64,000 nt of DNA from Symbiotaphrina buchneri (lineage: Eukaryota; Ascomycota; Symbiotaphrinales; Symbiotaphrinaceae): positions 124,001 to 188,000 of the forward strand of contig BCIG01000019.1 of assembly GCA_001599915.1 (NCBI GenBank). Direction: 5' to 3'. Below are positions 28,394 through 35,431 of this stretch, piece after piece. The notes beneath the pieces are model-generated. The model was not told the DNA's origin, did not search any database, and saw nothing but the letters and a program-made list of their open reading frames with translations. The stretch's first letter is position 1. Each line of letters opens with the position of its first letter. The translations under genes and the position numbers were made by a program.

Positions 28394-30335
28394 ATGGCTC
28401 TGCAAGCGTATCACGGCTACTTCGACATTCACGACATCCACGGTATCCACGACATCATGGTTCAGGACGCAAATCCAGTGACCAATCTCAGGATGTCTCA
28501 ATCGATGTCGAGATTTCGTATGCCAACCGGTGCGGATTATGAAGGACTCAATAGCGTTTGGAAGCGAGGGCCGCCAAAAGATTTCATAGAGAGGGTCCAT
28601 GGTCGTAGGGATGGCATAGAAATGAGGTGGGTTTGTGATGGATGTGAAAAGGTGCTGATCTTTCACCTTTCCAATGTATTATTGACTTGTAATGGCACTG
28701 ATCCTCTTGCTTGCAGGCGTTTTCGGCCTCGCAAACACGATTCCATTGCTTGGACTGCTGCGACTTCGACTATTGTTCTACTTGTTACACTGATTCCGCT
28801 TCCAAGCATGAAGAGTATCGCTTTGTTGAAATTGAGAACTCGGCTCATACTAAGAGTATGGATCATTACCTCCTGTTTCCCCTCGAAAATCAGCCGACAC
28901 TGTCGGAGTGGGCTGAGAAGGAGCAGAGCAGTCTAGCTGAAGACGAGCGGACGAGGACAAACCGGACATTCTTCTCAGTCACACATATTTACAAGCCATT
29001 GAATGAGCTGGACATGGAGGTACGACTTCTTGCACTTCTACCTGGATCATCAGGAGAAGCTGTGAAATGTAAGCTCGCTCACGCTCCGCTGTACTCCAAC
29101 TTAAAGTACGATGCGTTATCATATACCTGGGGCGCGAAAGCTGGGCAAAAGTCGATATCCCTCGACGGAGCTCCTTTTTCCGTTCGCCAGAATCTTCACT
29201 CTGCGTTGCTCGCATGCGGAATGAAGATCACATGAGGTTCCTATGGATCGACGCGATTTGCATCAATCAGAACGACGACGCAGAGAAAAGTCGCGAGGTT
29301 CAGCGGATGAGACATATCTACACGGAGGCGTCTAATGTCCTGGTTTGGCTGGGAGATGCAGCCGAAGAGAGCGATCTGGCGATGGAACTAGCGGCTAGCC
29401 AGCCTCTGGGCAATGTCCTGCGCGGAACTGATGCGCATTGGTCAGCACTGGAACGCCTTGTGCATCGGCCGTGGTGGAGCCGCATATGATGCGTGCAAGA
29501 GCTGGTAACTGCCATACAGAGTCCGATCATGATGTGCGGCCGAAAATCCGTGTCCTACCTTCGTATGTCCGATGCGACGAGGAAACTACCCGGTCACTGG
29601 GCTCGCAAGGGGTTGACAAGTGGGGAGAAGTATTCACCCTCGTACAAGCGGCTTACTTTCCAAACACTTTCATCTCTACGAGGACAATTTCCGATATACA
29701 CGGACTGTCTCCTTTATCTCTTGGCCATGACTCTGGCACACGAAGCTACCAATCCCCGGGACGAAGTCTATGCTCTCATTGGGATGTGTCGCCGAGAAGA
29801 TCGTGAAGGCATCTTGCCTGACTACAGCAAGACTGTCCGAGATGTCTATATAGAAACATCTCGCCATCTCATGAAGTCCAGTCTTAATTGCCTGTCTTTC
29901 AATACCAACTCCCCCAGAACTGAGCTCTTTGGCGGCAGGAAGCTGCCCTCATATGTGTCTGACTGGTCGCTCAACGCAAGCCGTCCTTCTCCTCTTTGGA
30001 AAGAGGGTGTATACGGTGCGTCCAAAGTAGGTCACACCAGATGTTACCCAGCAGTCTTCGAAAGTAAAGATCCGGATGTTCTACGACTAGCAGGAGCACG
30101 GCTAGTTCGCGTAGAAGAGATGACTGAGGTCATCGTCCCAGATGAAACATGGGCATCGAAGGGTTCGGAAAGCTTGTATCATACCATCCGCACAGTTGAA
30201 AACTTCGTGAGACGATGTATAAAATCTCAACGTCCAAATTACAACCCTGATCGAATTATTGATCCCGCCCACTCCGATGTCTCTTGGAGGACGCTGATAT
30301 CGGACAAGGAGTACCCGCAGCTTCTTCTTTCATAA

Positions 30336-31408
30336 AACTTATGTCTAGATATAAACAATAGACTTTCCTACATTATTTGGTTAAATAATGTGTTGACATT
30401 ATATATCACTTTTTTATTTAATTATTAAATAAATATAATCAATAAGGGTTTATTTAGCTTAACTAAATAACATGTAAAACCAACTAACAAATGGTTTAGT
30501 GTACATAATTATCTATCTANACATATATAGATTTAAATTAATGTAAATCCAGTGCATCTTTTATATAACTACTAGTTAATACTACAAAAACTTGAGCTTG
30601 TATAAAANCAATACCTAACTCTAAACCAGAAAAGGCTATAATAAACGCTAAAGGTATTAAAGCTAAGAAGAAAAATATGAAACCTGAAGTCATTATATTA
30701 TAACAGAATCCTGATAGTATATTTAATAGCATATGACCACTTAATATGTTAGCAGCTAAACGTAAACCTAAACTTACATTTCTAGCTAAATATGAAATGA
30801 ACTCTATTAATACNAATAAAGGTAATAAAGCTAAAGGACAACCAGATGGAACAAACAATGAAAAGAATTTTAAACCTGAAACCTAGTATAGTTGCACCTA
30901 AAACTACTGTAAAACTAAGTGCAAATGTTAAAATAAAATGAGAAGTTGAAGCAAAACTATAGGGAACCATACCTATTAAGTTATTTATTAAAATAAACAC
31001 AAATAATGTATAAATAAAAGGAAAGTATANTTGTCCTTTATTTGCATTAATTTGATTTATAACTATACTATGTATAGTAGCGTAAATAGATTCTTGACTT
31101 ATTGATNAACTATTTGACACAACCTTGTTGTAATTAGTTGCCAATAAATTTAAACTTAGTGTTATTAAAGCACCTATAGTTAAATACAATCCTATATTAG
31201 TTAAAGAGAAATGTAAATTGGCTAGAATAGGAGCATCTAAACTTAACAAATCTCTAACTTCAAATTGATCTAAAGGACTAGAGATCTGTGAATATTGTGA
31301 ATACTGTGAATAGTAGGTTTCTGNCATATCTTACTAACAGTTTCCTTAGAATGAGTTATTGAAATAAACTTACATGTACCTTTTTTTTTACAATTAACCA
31401 TAAATAAT
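30336..31408. other. Nuclear copy of mitochondrial DNA (NUMT) inside the HET gene
   Basis: About 1.07 kb of strongly AT-rich sequence sits inside the HET reading frame, with coding sequence of the same protein on both sides. It contains atp6 in reverse orientation plus its mitochondrial flanks. Six undetermined bases (30520, 30608, 30814, 31030, 31107, 31324) fall in it, against one in the rest of the window. Boundaries are judged by where HET coding stops and restarts, so they are good to some tens of bases. Confidence 0.85.
30538..31327 (-). pseudogene. atp6: Mitochondrial ATP synthase subunit 6 copy
   Basis: The minus strand encodes mitochondrial ATP synthase subunit a, the proton-channel subunit of complex V: SPLDQFEVRDLLSLDAPIL, then MVPYSFASTSHFILTF, ARNVSLGLRLAANILSGHML and the end IQAQVFVVLTSSYIKDALDLH. 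One codon of the form TNA at 31107 falls where Trp (TGA in mitochondrial code) is expected. The copy is not intact. At about 30870-30885 the frame shifts, and a stretch equal to KHG is missing between ATILGFR and LKFFSLF, consistent with loss of about eight bases. The segment upstream of the conserved start has three copies of a 9-base unit (TGTGAATAT-like). A nuclear location and the shift both argue that it is not expressed. Confidence 0.92.
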
Positions 31409-31841
31409 CTGTTACTGCTGGAACTCCCCCGCGAACGCAGAATTCGGAAAAGCCTACCAGGTACTGCGCAGAAGAGCTTGGGGCGGCAGAGGTACAGACG
31501 ATGGTGACGACGATGAAGACGACCGTCTTTGGCATGTCCCAGAATACATCGGTCTCGCACGACACATCTTGCAGAATCGCCGGGTTTTCTGTACGACACG
31601 GGGCTTCTTTGGGGTGTCTGCTGCAGACATTCAAGTAGGGGACGTTGTCACCATCCTTGCTGGTGGCGATATGCCGTTCATTTTACGAGACATTGAGCAC
31701 AACCCCCTAGCAGAGAAGGCTACTATGAGAAGTGAGCAAAGAGGCGACCATCTCCAATTCATTTCAGAAGCGTACGTCTATGGGTTCATGGATGGCATAC
31801 TTTTCACAGCTGTACCAAAGATAATTTTCTCAATCGCCTGA

Positions 31842-32223: not shown

Positions 32224-34476
32224 TCACCCCCCACCACCACCGCACCCACCTCCTCCTCCACCACCACACCCTCCTCCTCCTCCCCCGCATCCCCCACCAC
32301 TCCCACAGCCTCCTCCGCCACCACAACTCGCGCCCGCCCCGCCCCCTCCAAAGCCACCACACCCGCCCGCCGCACACGTGCCCGCCACACAATTCCCGAC
32401 CTCCCCCGCACCAGTCGGGACATACGCCGGATCACACGGATACACATCACCATTCATGACGCACGGGTCAACGCCATAGGGGATATAGACCGGGTACATG
32501 AGCGGGTAGCCATACGCATAGACGAGGTAATCGTCCCGCGAGGGGGCGGGGCGACCGCGTTTCTCCTCGCGCTGGGAGTGGTCGCGGTAGGCGCGCTCGA
32601 GGCGCGCGGCGCCGATGCGTGCGTCGAGGGAGGAGGAGCTGCGGACTGCGTTGTGTGCGCTGATGTGGGGGTTGCGCGAGGCGGATGTGAGCGCTGCCTC
32701 GCGGTCGTGGGCGGTGCCCGCTGGGGTGCTGGGTTTCTTCCAGGAAAGGGATGGGGAGGAGGTGTAGAGGGCTTCGTTGGCGGTGTGGACGGAGCGGCGG
32801 AAGAGGCGGTCGACGGAGGAGGTGTGGGATTCGCGGACGGCGCAGCAGTACCAGCAGGTGCACTCGCTGTAGGGCTCGGAGAACCTGCTTTGGTAGATGC
32901 GCGACGTCCAGGTGAAGGCGTCGTTGAGTTTCTCCTGGGGCACTTTGTCGTCGTGGTCGATGAATTTGCGGGTTAGCGTGACGGTGTATTGGTAGTAACC
33001 ATATGGCATGAGTTGGTGCGTGTGCCATGCCAGATCGACGTCCAGGGTAGGTACTGCCATCGACCTGGGGTTGTCCCTGATGATGGTCATGAAGCGCTTG
33101 TATTTGACCAGCAGCCGCTCCATGGTCGATTCCAGCGCGGGAGAGTGCAGCCAGTCGATGGCGTGCATTTTCTCGATGAATGAACCCTGGCGGATGACGG
33201 CGCCGACCAGGTCCAATGCGAAGGGAGACGAGTTGTCCCAGTATCGTGACATCATGCGCCTAACAGCGATGGATTCGTCTCGTGCTATGGTCGTCTTGTG
33301 CTTTTTAGCGGACCGAATGAGTTCCTTGTTCCGCAGGGCCTTTTCCCACATCTTCCGCAGGTCCGCCATGGAGCCGGACAGCTGCAGTGCTTCAGACCCA
33401 AGACCGCTGAGTAGGAGTTGGTTGGGGAAGAACGACTCATGCGGGCCGTAACCCATATTGGTCTTCGGTTCTGCGGGCATGCCTTCCGTGCTCAGCACTG
33501 TCCCGGGCAGAGGGTATCCATATTTGAGCAAGTCTTGAACGTCTCTCCGGAACCTGGCCACCCGCAAAGCATCATGGGTAACCTCAGCCTTGCAGAGGTG
33601 GCACTGGGCTAGAAATCCCCGGTCCGCGTAGCCGGCGCCACTATTGTATGAATTCGTACTGTGGCTGAAGCCGCAACCCCTCGTCCATGGCACACCGATC
33701 CACATGGAGCACTTGGGGCAGCGTATGTCGGCTTTCAGCGGACCGTCAAGGTTGTTCCAAGTCAGCTTGGTGTTCTTTTCGAAATGTCGTTGTGATTCGG
33801 AATTGGGCTTGTAGTCGAACGTCATATTGTCAATGGCGCTGTCGACCGCCTCCCAATAGATCCCATGTGCGAACAGGTGCATTACGCCATATCGAAGGCA
33901 GTCTTCCAAGAAGCCGCGTGGGTTGAGCATGTAAGCATGCAACACCATCAAGACATCCAGAGGCGGTAAGGAGTCCTTGTGCAACGACACCGGAGTGCTG
34001 CCAAAGGCCATCACTTTCTTCGCAGCGTCTTTGTCCTCCATATCATACCTGGTCAAGCGTCGAGACGAGCTCGGGAGTGCCTCCCACCAGACCCTGAATC
34101 GCTCCACAGCCCGCGCCGTATACACCGCCCAGCGTTTCTCGCGCATCTTGGCCGCATCGGCATCTCTGGTCTCCGGCGGTGGATTCGGCCGCGTATCCGT
34201 GAGGCCAAAGAGGCCATCGGTGTTGGCCACCTCCTCGCGGAGGTTCTGGAAGCATTCAAGGAGCTTCAGGTGCGCAATGCAATGGTTTGTGCCGGGGATG
34301 GTCGCCTGCTTGAGGTTGAGGTTGGCTAGTCGAGCCGTGAGCTCCCCGCCATATTCGGGCAGATCTTCGAAGTAAGCTGGCGGCTGCTCCTTCTGTGAGT
34401 CTCCGTTGCTTTGTTTCTCCATTGAGCCCTTCTCAGGGACTGGAGGCTTGATGTCCTTTGAAGATGTCGCGGCCAT
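32224..34476 (-). CDS. DUF1399 / glycine-rich-domain protein
   Basis: A single exon of 750 residues. I start at MAATSSKDI; the longer frame begins at a TTG. The core has the DUF1399 signature DVDLAWHTHQLMP near residue 490, with the preceding FIEKMHAIDWLHSP. There is also a cysteine-rich patch, CPKCSMWIGVPW...CHLC, that could bind zinc, and CTCWYCC later. The last 65 residues are almost only Gly and Cys in runs such as CGGGGGGCGGGG. Plant members (GRDP proteins) have the same layout of DUF1399 followed by a Gly-rich tail and are linked to stress and auxin responses. In fungi the role is unknown. The tail is encoded by a CCA/CCT-type low-complexity tract at 32220-32400. Confidence 0.9.
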   Translation of the reverse strand: MAATSSKDIKPPVPEKGSMEKQSNGDSQKEQPPAYFEDLPEYGGELTARLANLNLKQATIPGTNHCIAHLKLLECFQNLREEVANTDGLFGLTDTRPNPPPETRDADAAKMREKRWAVYTARAVERFRVWWEALPSSSRRLTRYDMEDKDAAKKVMAFGSTPVSLHKDSLPPLDVLMVLHAYMLNPRGFLEDCLRYGVMHLFAHGIYWEAVDSAIDNMTFDYKPNSESQRHFEKNTKLTWNNLDGPLKADIRCPKCSMWIGVPWTRGCGFSHSTNSYNSGAGYADRGFLAQCHLCKAEVTHDALRVARFRRDVQDLLKYGYPLPGTVLSTEGMPAEPKTNMGYGPHESFFPNQLLLSGLGSEALQLSGSMADLRKMWEKALRNKELIRSAKKHKTTIARDESIAVRRMMSRYWDNSSPFALDLVGAVIRQGSFIEKMHAIDWLHSPALESTMERLLVKYKRFMTIIRDNPRSMAVPTLDVDLAWHTHQLMPYGYYQYTVTLTRKFIDHDDKVPQEKLNDAFTWTSRIYQSRFSEPYSECTCWYCCAVRESHTSSVDRLFRRSVHTANEALYTSSPSLSWKKPSTPAGTAHDREAALTSASRNPHISAHNAVRSSSSLDARIGAARLERAYRDHSQREEKRGRPAPSRDDYLVYAYGYPLMYPVYIPYGVDPCVMNGDVYPCDPAYVPTGAGEVGNCVAGTCAAGGCGGFGGGGAGASCGGGGGCGSGGGCGGGGGGCGGGGGGGCGGGGG

Positions 34477-35431
34477 ACTTGCGAGTAAGATCCTTGAAGA
34501 TAGATAGGACAAAGGGGAATCAGCGACAGTAATTTATAGCCTGATGTTATCTCGGGCTGTGAGTCACGGCGCAGAAGCCTATGCTCGGCGTCTCGATGGG
34601 CGATGTCATGGCCGTGGCTTGCTTACTTTGTTACGCTGGCTCAGAAGGAGTGGGGTCCGCTGGCAAGGCTGAGACGCCTGGCTGACTGCCTTGCGAGCCC
34701 GCGAAGCTTAACCAAATTAAGCCCCACATCCCTCCCTGTGCGCCTTGTTACCTTAATCACATGAAGGTCGGGAAAACTCGATAGCGATAGCCCTACGGTG
34801 TACATAATGAATGACATAGCACACTACCCATCAGTACAAACGAATCTTCCGCCAAGTATTTTGACTCTGGCTGCTCTCCTAAGCCCCCAATTGGCCGAAC
34901 CACCCCGTTGACCCCCAAATAGGGTCAACTCTGAGCCAAGGCAGAGCACGCCCGCAATTGAGTTCCCATCCTTATTTTGGTACAAGCTCTAACCCCCGGT
35001 CTGCCTTCGGCGTGTCCTCATCCATTGCTCTCAGTTCTTGACGTGTTCGCTTCTCTGCTTGCTCCGGAGACACATGCCACAAGCGACAGTCGTGATTGGT
35101 GCAAGGCAAGCTGGCTCGCTCAAAAGAGACATTATGTTGGGCTTCTGGAGTCTGGAGCCTACTTTAGACACTTTTGTGGAAGAGCCCCGTAGATACATGT
35201 CTATATCTGACCTATTGTAATCTATGATATGCCCCAGTAATATCGCTACACGTCACCGAGGGAAATTCCGCTATCAATTATGCAATTTTCAACTTGGCTA
35301 AAGTGGTATCACAACATCATTTGGATGACAGCAGGGGGTATATGCATCAGCCCACCCACGGCAAGACCAACACCAGACCAAAACTCCGGATGCACCTTCG
35401 CTGAATAGACTGCAAACTCAATCCCATCCCG
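34477..35431. other. Intergenic
   Basis: Upstream region of the DUF1399 gene and 3' flank of the serine-rich gene. No gene or repeat is seen. Confidence 0.5.

Follow-up and report, generated by a model that had tools for sequence, protein, structure and literature searches.

The window, a stretch of 64,000 nucleotides on a 665-kb contig (C19) of an assembly of 23.38 Mb in 82 contigs, carries on its plus strand the parts of a HET-type gene and, between two of these parts, a segment of low G+C content that holds most of the mitochondrial gene atp6 on the minus strand. The HET genes of the assembly suggest a filamentous ascomycete. The 5' part of the HET-type gene (28702-29235, plus strand) contains the start of the HET domain (PF06985, E 0.00035) and seemingly opens with a weak ZZ-type zinc finger (PF00569, E 0.001), both matches lying just below the Pfam cut-off, and the main HET domain follows at 29073-29489 on the same strand (PF06985, E 8.4e-22). 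Next come a middle part (29490-30335, plus strand), whose stop at 30333-30335 lies immediately upstream of the segment, and, downstream of it, a C-terminal part in the open frame 31404-31841 (plus strand), within which nuclear sequence begins at 31412. About 380 bases past the end of the HET-type gene, and in the opposite direction, there is a minus-strand open frame of 769 residues with a glycine-rich tail (32224-34533).

The HET pseudogene and the segment within it

The HET profile runs from the first of these frames (profile positions 1-41) into the second (39-141), and this continuity across two frames places a frameshift at 29205-29214. The TGA that ends the second frame (29487-29489) is in frame, and two paralogues on contigs C3 and C34, aligned by eye, have a tryptophan at that position. 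Neither the middle nor the C-terminal part gave a Pfam match of its own; the middle part is recognizable from the paralogues on C3 and C34, and the C-terminal part from paralogues on C8, C5, C33 and C34 and, weakly, C3. The similarity to these paralogues is weak (for the C-terminal part, C34, E 0.036, and C3, E 0.998, in the genome search; C3, E 8.6e-8, in a local comparison), and the two parts stand in the same order and on the same strand as in the C3 and C34 paralogues. The spacing between marker motifs is 2031 bases in the window and 955 without the 1076-base insert, compared with 1073 in C3 and 1152 in C34. Because the paralogues share part order, strand, and comparable spacing without the segment, the latter is best described as an insertion into one HET gene. 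The empty-site spacing of 955 bases is 118-197 bases below that of the two paralogues, and some sequence may possibly have been lost at the insertion site.

The HET domain is thus clearly present (8.4e-22), but the reading frame is interrupted by the frameshift, the TGA, and the insert. Judged from these lesions, the gene is a pseudogene irrespective of the insert, since the frameshift at 29205-29214 and the in-frame stop at 29487-29489 would each be disabling, and the insert therefore need not have killed it. The earlier note had described an insertion into a nuclear HET gene; HET parts do flank the segment on both sides, but the target is not otherwise intact. The open frames on either side of the insert happen to be in phase (31404 - 29490 = 1914, a multiple of three), as would be expected had the insert been adopted as an intron or as a new end of a HET protein that still works. 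This is nevertheless extremely improbable, given the stop at 30333-30335 and a HET domain that already bears the upstream frameshift and TGA.

The insert itself (30336-31411, minus strand) is about 1.08 kb long (1076 bases) and comprises most of atp6 together with some sequence past it. Its left edge lies near 30336, with an uncertainty of about 12 bases, and its right edge is set at 31411, the last position at which a second copy on contig C20 is still identical. The G+C content of the segment is about 25%, against a mean of 53% (0.528 in 1-kb windows over the first 258 kb of contig C19), and in 50-base steps it drops from about 0.4-0.5 to 0.12-0.32 at 30351-31400, a drop that is also visible in the 500-base profile. 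Two minus-strand open frames match both the Pfam family ATP-synt_A (PF00119) and, among solved structures, the ATP synthase subunit a chain 6b2z_a (yeast Atp6). The frame at 30782-31330 represents the N-terminal part (PF00119, 1.9e-19; 6b2z_a residues 1-136, 1.2e-26) and keeps to the atp6 frame as far as about 30878, and the frame at 30538-30882 represents the C-terminal part (PF00119, 6e-27; residues 138-249, 2.1e-28). Comparison of the two 6b2z_a alignments locates the break between them at 30877-30880 (minus strand), where residues 134 to 138 require 9 bases and the window has 1, so that 8 are missing, provided there is no other gap there. The claim that the atp6 copy is about eight bases short and non-functional is therefore borne out by the placement of both frames on 6b2z_a; the insert cannot serve as atp6 because of the missing bases and its nuclear location. 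Likewise, the proposal that some 1.07 kb of mitochondrial DNA lies between two HET coding parts is confirmed by the G+C content, the atp6 matches, and the flanking parts with their paralogues. Taken together, the locus shows homology to mitochondrial DNA (atp6), nuclear DNA on both sides (the HET parts), and a copy that is non-functional, as in a nuclear insertion of mitochondrial DNA (NUMT).

Exact pieces of the segment in other contigs

A search of the genome with the segment as query returned exact pieces on three other contigs. The longest, 31279-31411 (minus strand), recurs at G000:C20:360607-360739 over 133 bases, 122 of which lie within the query, and includes the same single N. A 36-base piece (30843-30878, minus strand) matches G000:C15:346691-346726 exactly, and this match stops at the place of the 8-base loss in the window's atp6. 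The third, of 31 bases (31193-31223, minus strand), is found in inverted orientation at G000:C14:321143-321173, within a larger array of A+T-rich pieces (G000:C14:321143-321882), two of which are shared exactly with the window and C20. There, the inverted 31-base atp6 piece runs directly into a stretch of 30 bases that C20 also has, and 3 bases (C14:321171-321173) belong to both; joins with a 3-base overlap are typical of end joining. Further pieces of this insert are found again at C16, C13, C11 (two places), and C10, and the whole is interrupted, within an ATT repeat, by a gap of 100 Ns. The C14 insert is a mosaic of joined non-contiguous pieces, the one clear mosaic of the set. The inserts on C13, C16, C20, and C46 may also be mosaics, although some of their adjacent pieces could be plain neighbours in the mitochondrial genome.

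The coincidence between the end of the C15 piece and the 8-base loss would reflect either chance or a preferred break point. Together with the mosaic nature of the C14 insert, it invites the reading that the segment in the window is itself a complex NUMT, in which two mitochondrial pieces were joined at the 8-base loss. Such a structure would be a special case of a true nuclear insertion. It deserves some weight but is rather doubtful; by a rough estimate, as opposed to a computed one, a shared end could arise by chance with a frequency of roughly 1% over 1.08 kb, and a plain small deletion is simpler because the order and strand of atp6 are kept across the point. The window insert shows just an 8-base loss within one ordered piece, whereas the C14 insert joins several non-contiguous ones. 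That preferred sites in the mitochondrial DNA are cut, for instance by a homing endonuclease encoded in an intron, with the ends feeding a steady series of nuclear insertions of which the C15 end would be a footprint, is very improbable.

Mitochondrial-like scraps across the assembly

Following the A+T-rich stretches beside the first matches with further searches revealed mitochondrial-like DNA at 17 places on 14 contigs including the window, i.e. 16 further places on 13 other contigs. These places are C3:825426, C6:297401, C9:399519, C10:398618, C11:325169, C11:395024, C13:614012, C14:321143, C15:131431, C15:346691, C16:617046, C17:288424, C19 (the window), C20:360607, C24:244450, C24:268182, and C46:1, and the number is a minimum, since a piece had to overlap one of the queries to be seen. 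The earlier note had described a single insertion at 30336-31408; the insert is real but is not isolated, being one among many such scraps. Mitochondrial identity is backed by protein matches for the window and for the places on C13, C16, C9, and C17, and the remaining places are linked to these only by shared sequence (88-100% identity), the weakest link being that of C10 (88%). For example, C13 carries a nad4 stretch (PDB, 6.6e-8; Pfam family search, 2.8e-7), to which the C3 scrap is tied through an exact match. On C3, the scrap consists of tandem pieces of 55 and 48 bases, 27 bases apart (C3:825426-825555), both exact to the same nad4-type stretch of C13. Elsewhere on this contig, a 306-residue open frame with a PF00361 match (6.2e-6, C3:808771-808926) was left out of the 17 places. 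Cytochrome b is represented on C9 (8.0e-11) and, short of the family cut-off, on C17 (6.7e-5); both stretches contain an in-frame TGA, as in the mitochondrial code. C16 carries a LAGLIDADG endonuclease stretch (8.8e-5), the one of ten translated pieces to exceed the Pfam cut-off. The C16 insert (C16:617046-617526) holds, besides the LAGLIDADG stretch, three single Ns, and parts of it recur at C6, C11, C13, C14, C15, and C24 (twice). The 30-kb contig C46 starts with a scrap common to C20 and C14 (G000:C46:1-38), and a NUMT may have ended the assembly at this point.

Several candidate assignments were set aside. In the C14 mosaic, a stretch resembling cytochrome b scored no better than E 0.036 against the PDB and had no Pfam cytochrome b match, and an atp8-like stretch at C10 (0.0032) stayed under the Pfam cut-off and retrieved no ATP synthase chain from the PDB. 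Apparent rRNA and tRNA pieces, spotted by inspection of the C14 and C46 inserts, are not claimed, as Rfam returned no RNA gene match in the scraps and ARAGORN no gene in 11 loci. C13, C14, and C16 might have had a repeat or exon unit in common, since their piece ends seemingly fall within 3 bases of one another, the C13 and C14 ends being 3 bases apart on the C16 sequence; this was set aside because the C6 and C15:131431 matches cross that point and the C16 sequence looks continuous. A search of the assembly for COX1 gave no match, from which the mitochondrial genome itself is seemingly not in the assembly, and cytochrome b gave only two short pieces. When the first 258 kb of C19 were compared with ten of the islands, no scrap matched beyond the window insert, and the one other A+T-rich stretch of this region that was scanned against Pfam gave no match.

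It is of note that 6 of the window's 7 single Ns lie inside the segment, where the assembly was thus unsure of the bases. Single Ns number 10 in 4169 insert bases and 2 in 282623 other bases (Fisher p 2.7e-17), as counted over ten loci (L002, L003, L004, L009, L037-L041, and L045) and the first 258 kb of C19, with edges set by eye and leaving out loci that repeat the same places as well as the HET paralogue loci L006 and L007. The C20 copy also has an N at the base that corresponds to the N at 31324, and the two copies agree at all 133 shared positions. On the simplest reading, which we infer from this distribution, the Ns mark bases at which mitochondrial reads, or reads from other copies, disagree with the nuclear copy. 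The pattern fits real NUMTs, and a consensus drawn from mixed mitochondrial reads would yield the same.

The latter is what would be expected of an assembly artefact in which a gap in the HET gene was filled with mitochondrial reads, high-copy mitochondrial reads being a usual source of wrong joins. The concentration of the window's Ns in the segment, the N shared with the C20 copy, and the 100-N gap in the C14 mosaic are all in keeping with such an error. On the other hand, gap filling is disfavoured because other contigs, ordinary in their composition, contain exact pieces of no more than 31 and 36 bases, and scraps occur at 17 places. The sole join that can be measured, on C14, overlaps by just 3 bases, whereas assembly programs need far more than this, and beyond the segment the HET gene continues on the same strand, with roughly the spacing of its paralogues. 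An artefact is accordingly unlikely. The view that a NUMT is more probable than a contig chimera gains support from the presence of one gene type on both sides, in the right order and strand, and from the short exact pieces elsewhere.

Origin of the insert and comparison with known NUMTs

A true nuclear insertion is the reading best supported by the sequence, and the segment is very probably a NUMT. A double-strand break in a nuclear HET-type gene would have taken up a mitochondrial piece of about 1.08 kb, presumably in the course of break repair, and end joining would then have sealed it in. This fungus has probably captured short mitochondrial pieces repeatedly, sometimes several joined together. 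Simple NUMTs are stated to arise through end joining, whose marks have also been described in mosaic mitochondrial-plastid insertions of plants (PMC6215612). Numts made of non-continuous pieces in differing orientations are known, and concatenation before insertion has been suggested for them (PMC2820518).

Events of this kind are known and fairly ordinary, and so is the single case in the window, a NUMT in a HET pseudogene; the genome around it holds many more mitochondrial scraps. What stands out is a compact fungal genome (23.4 Mb) in which such scraps are spread over many places and many match one another exactly. This set could serve the study of how fungi patch breaks, and it could also warn that a nuclear copy may be taken for a mitochondrial variant. 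No NUMT inside a HET gene came up among the listed titles and opening lines of abstracts on NUMTs, for which HET was not a search term, and this is no sign that there is none.

Among fungi, NUMT content ranges from 0.078 to 77.142 kb in the table rows seen of one survey (PMC2820518). The NUMT-rich Phaeosphaeria nodorum (77 kb) and Ustilago maydis (59 kb), as listed in those rows, likewise hold much nuclear mitochondrial DNA (PMC2820518); whereas these figures are totals, the 17 places reported here come from partial searches. Counts have been given for Pichia sorbitophila, with 24 NUMTs (PMC3284337), and Penicillium rubens, with 2 (PMC12125605). The latter is, like the present species, a filamentous fungus with mitochondrial DNA in nuclear contigs, and it shows a pile-up of reads over the inserts, which in our case is guessed from the Ns alone (PMC12125605). 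No coding region was found to be disrupted by the two P. rubens NUMTs, in contrast to at least 17 places here, one of which is in a HET gene (PMC12125605). With NUMTs in general, the insert shares a fragment of a mitochondrial gene in nuclear DNA, a broken frame, and occurrence at several loci. It does not differ from them in kind, and what is particular to it is its position within a HET pseudogene, in a genome that harbors many very short mitochondrial pieces.
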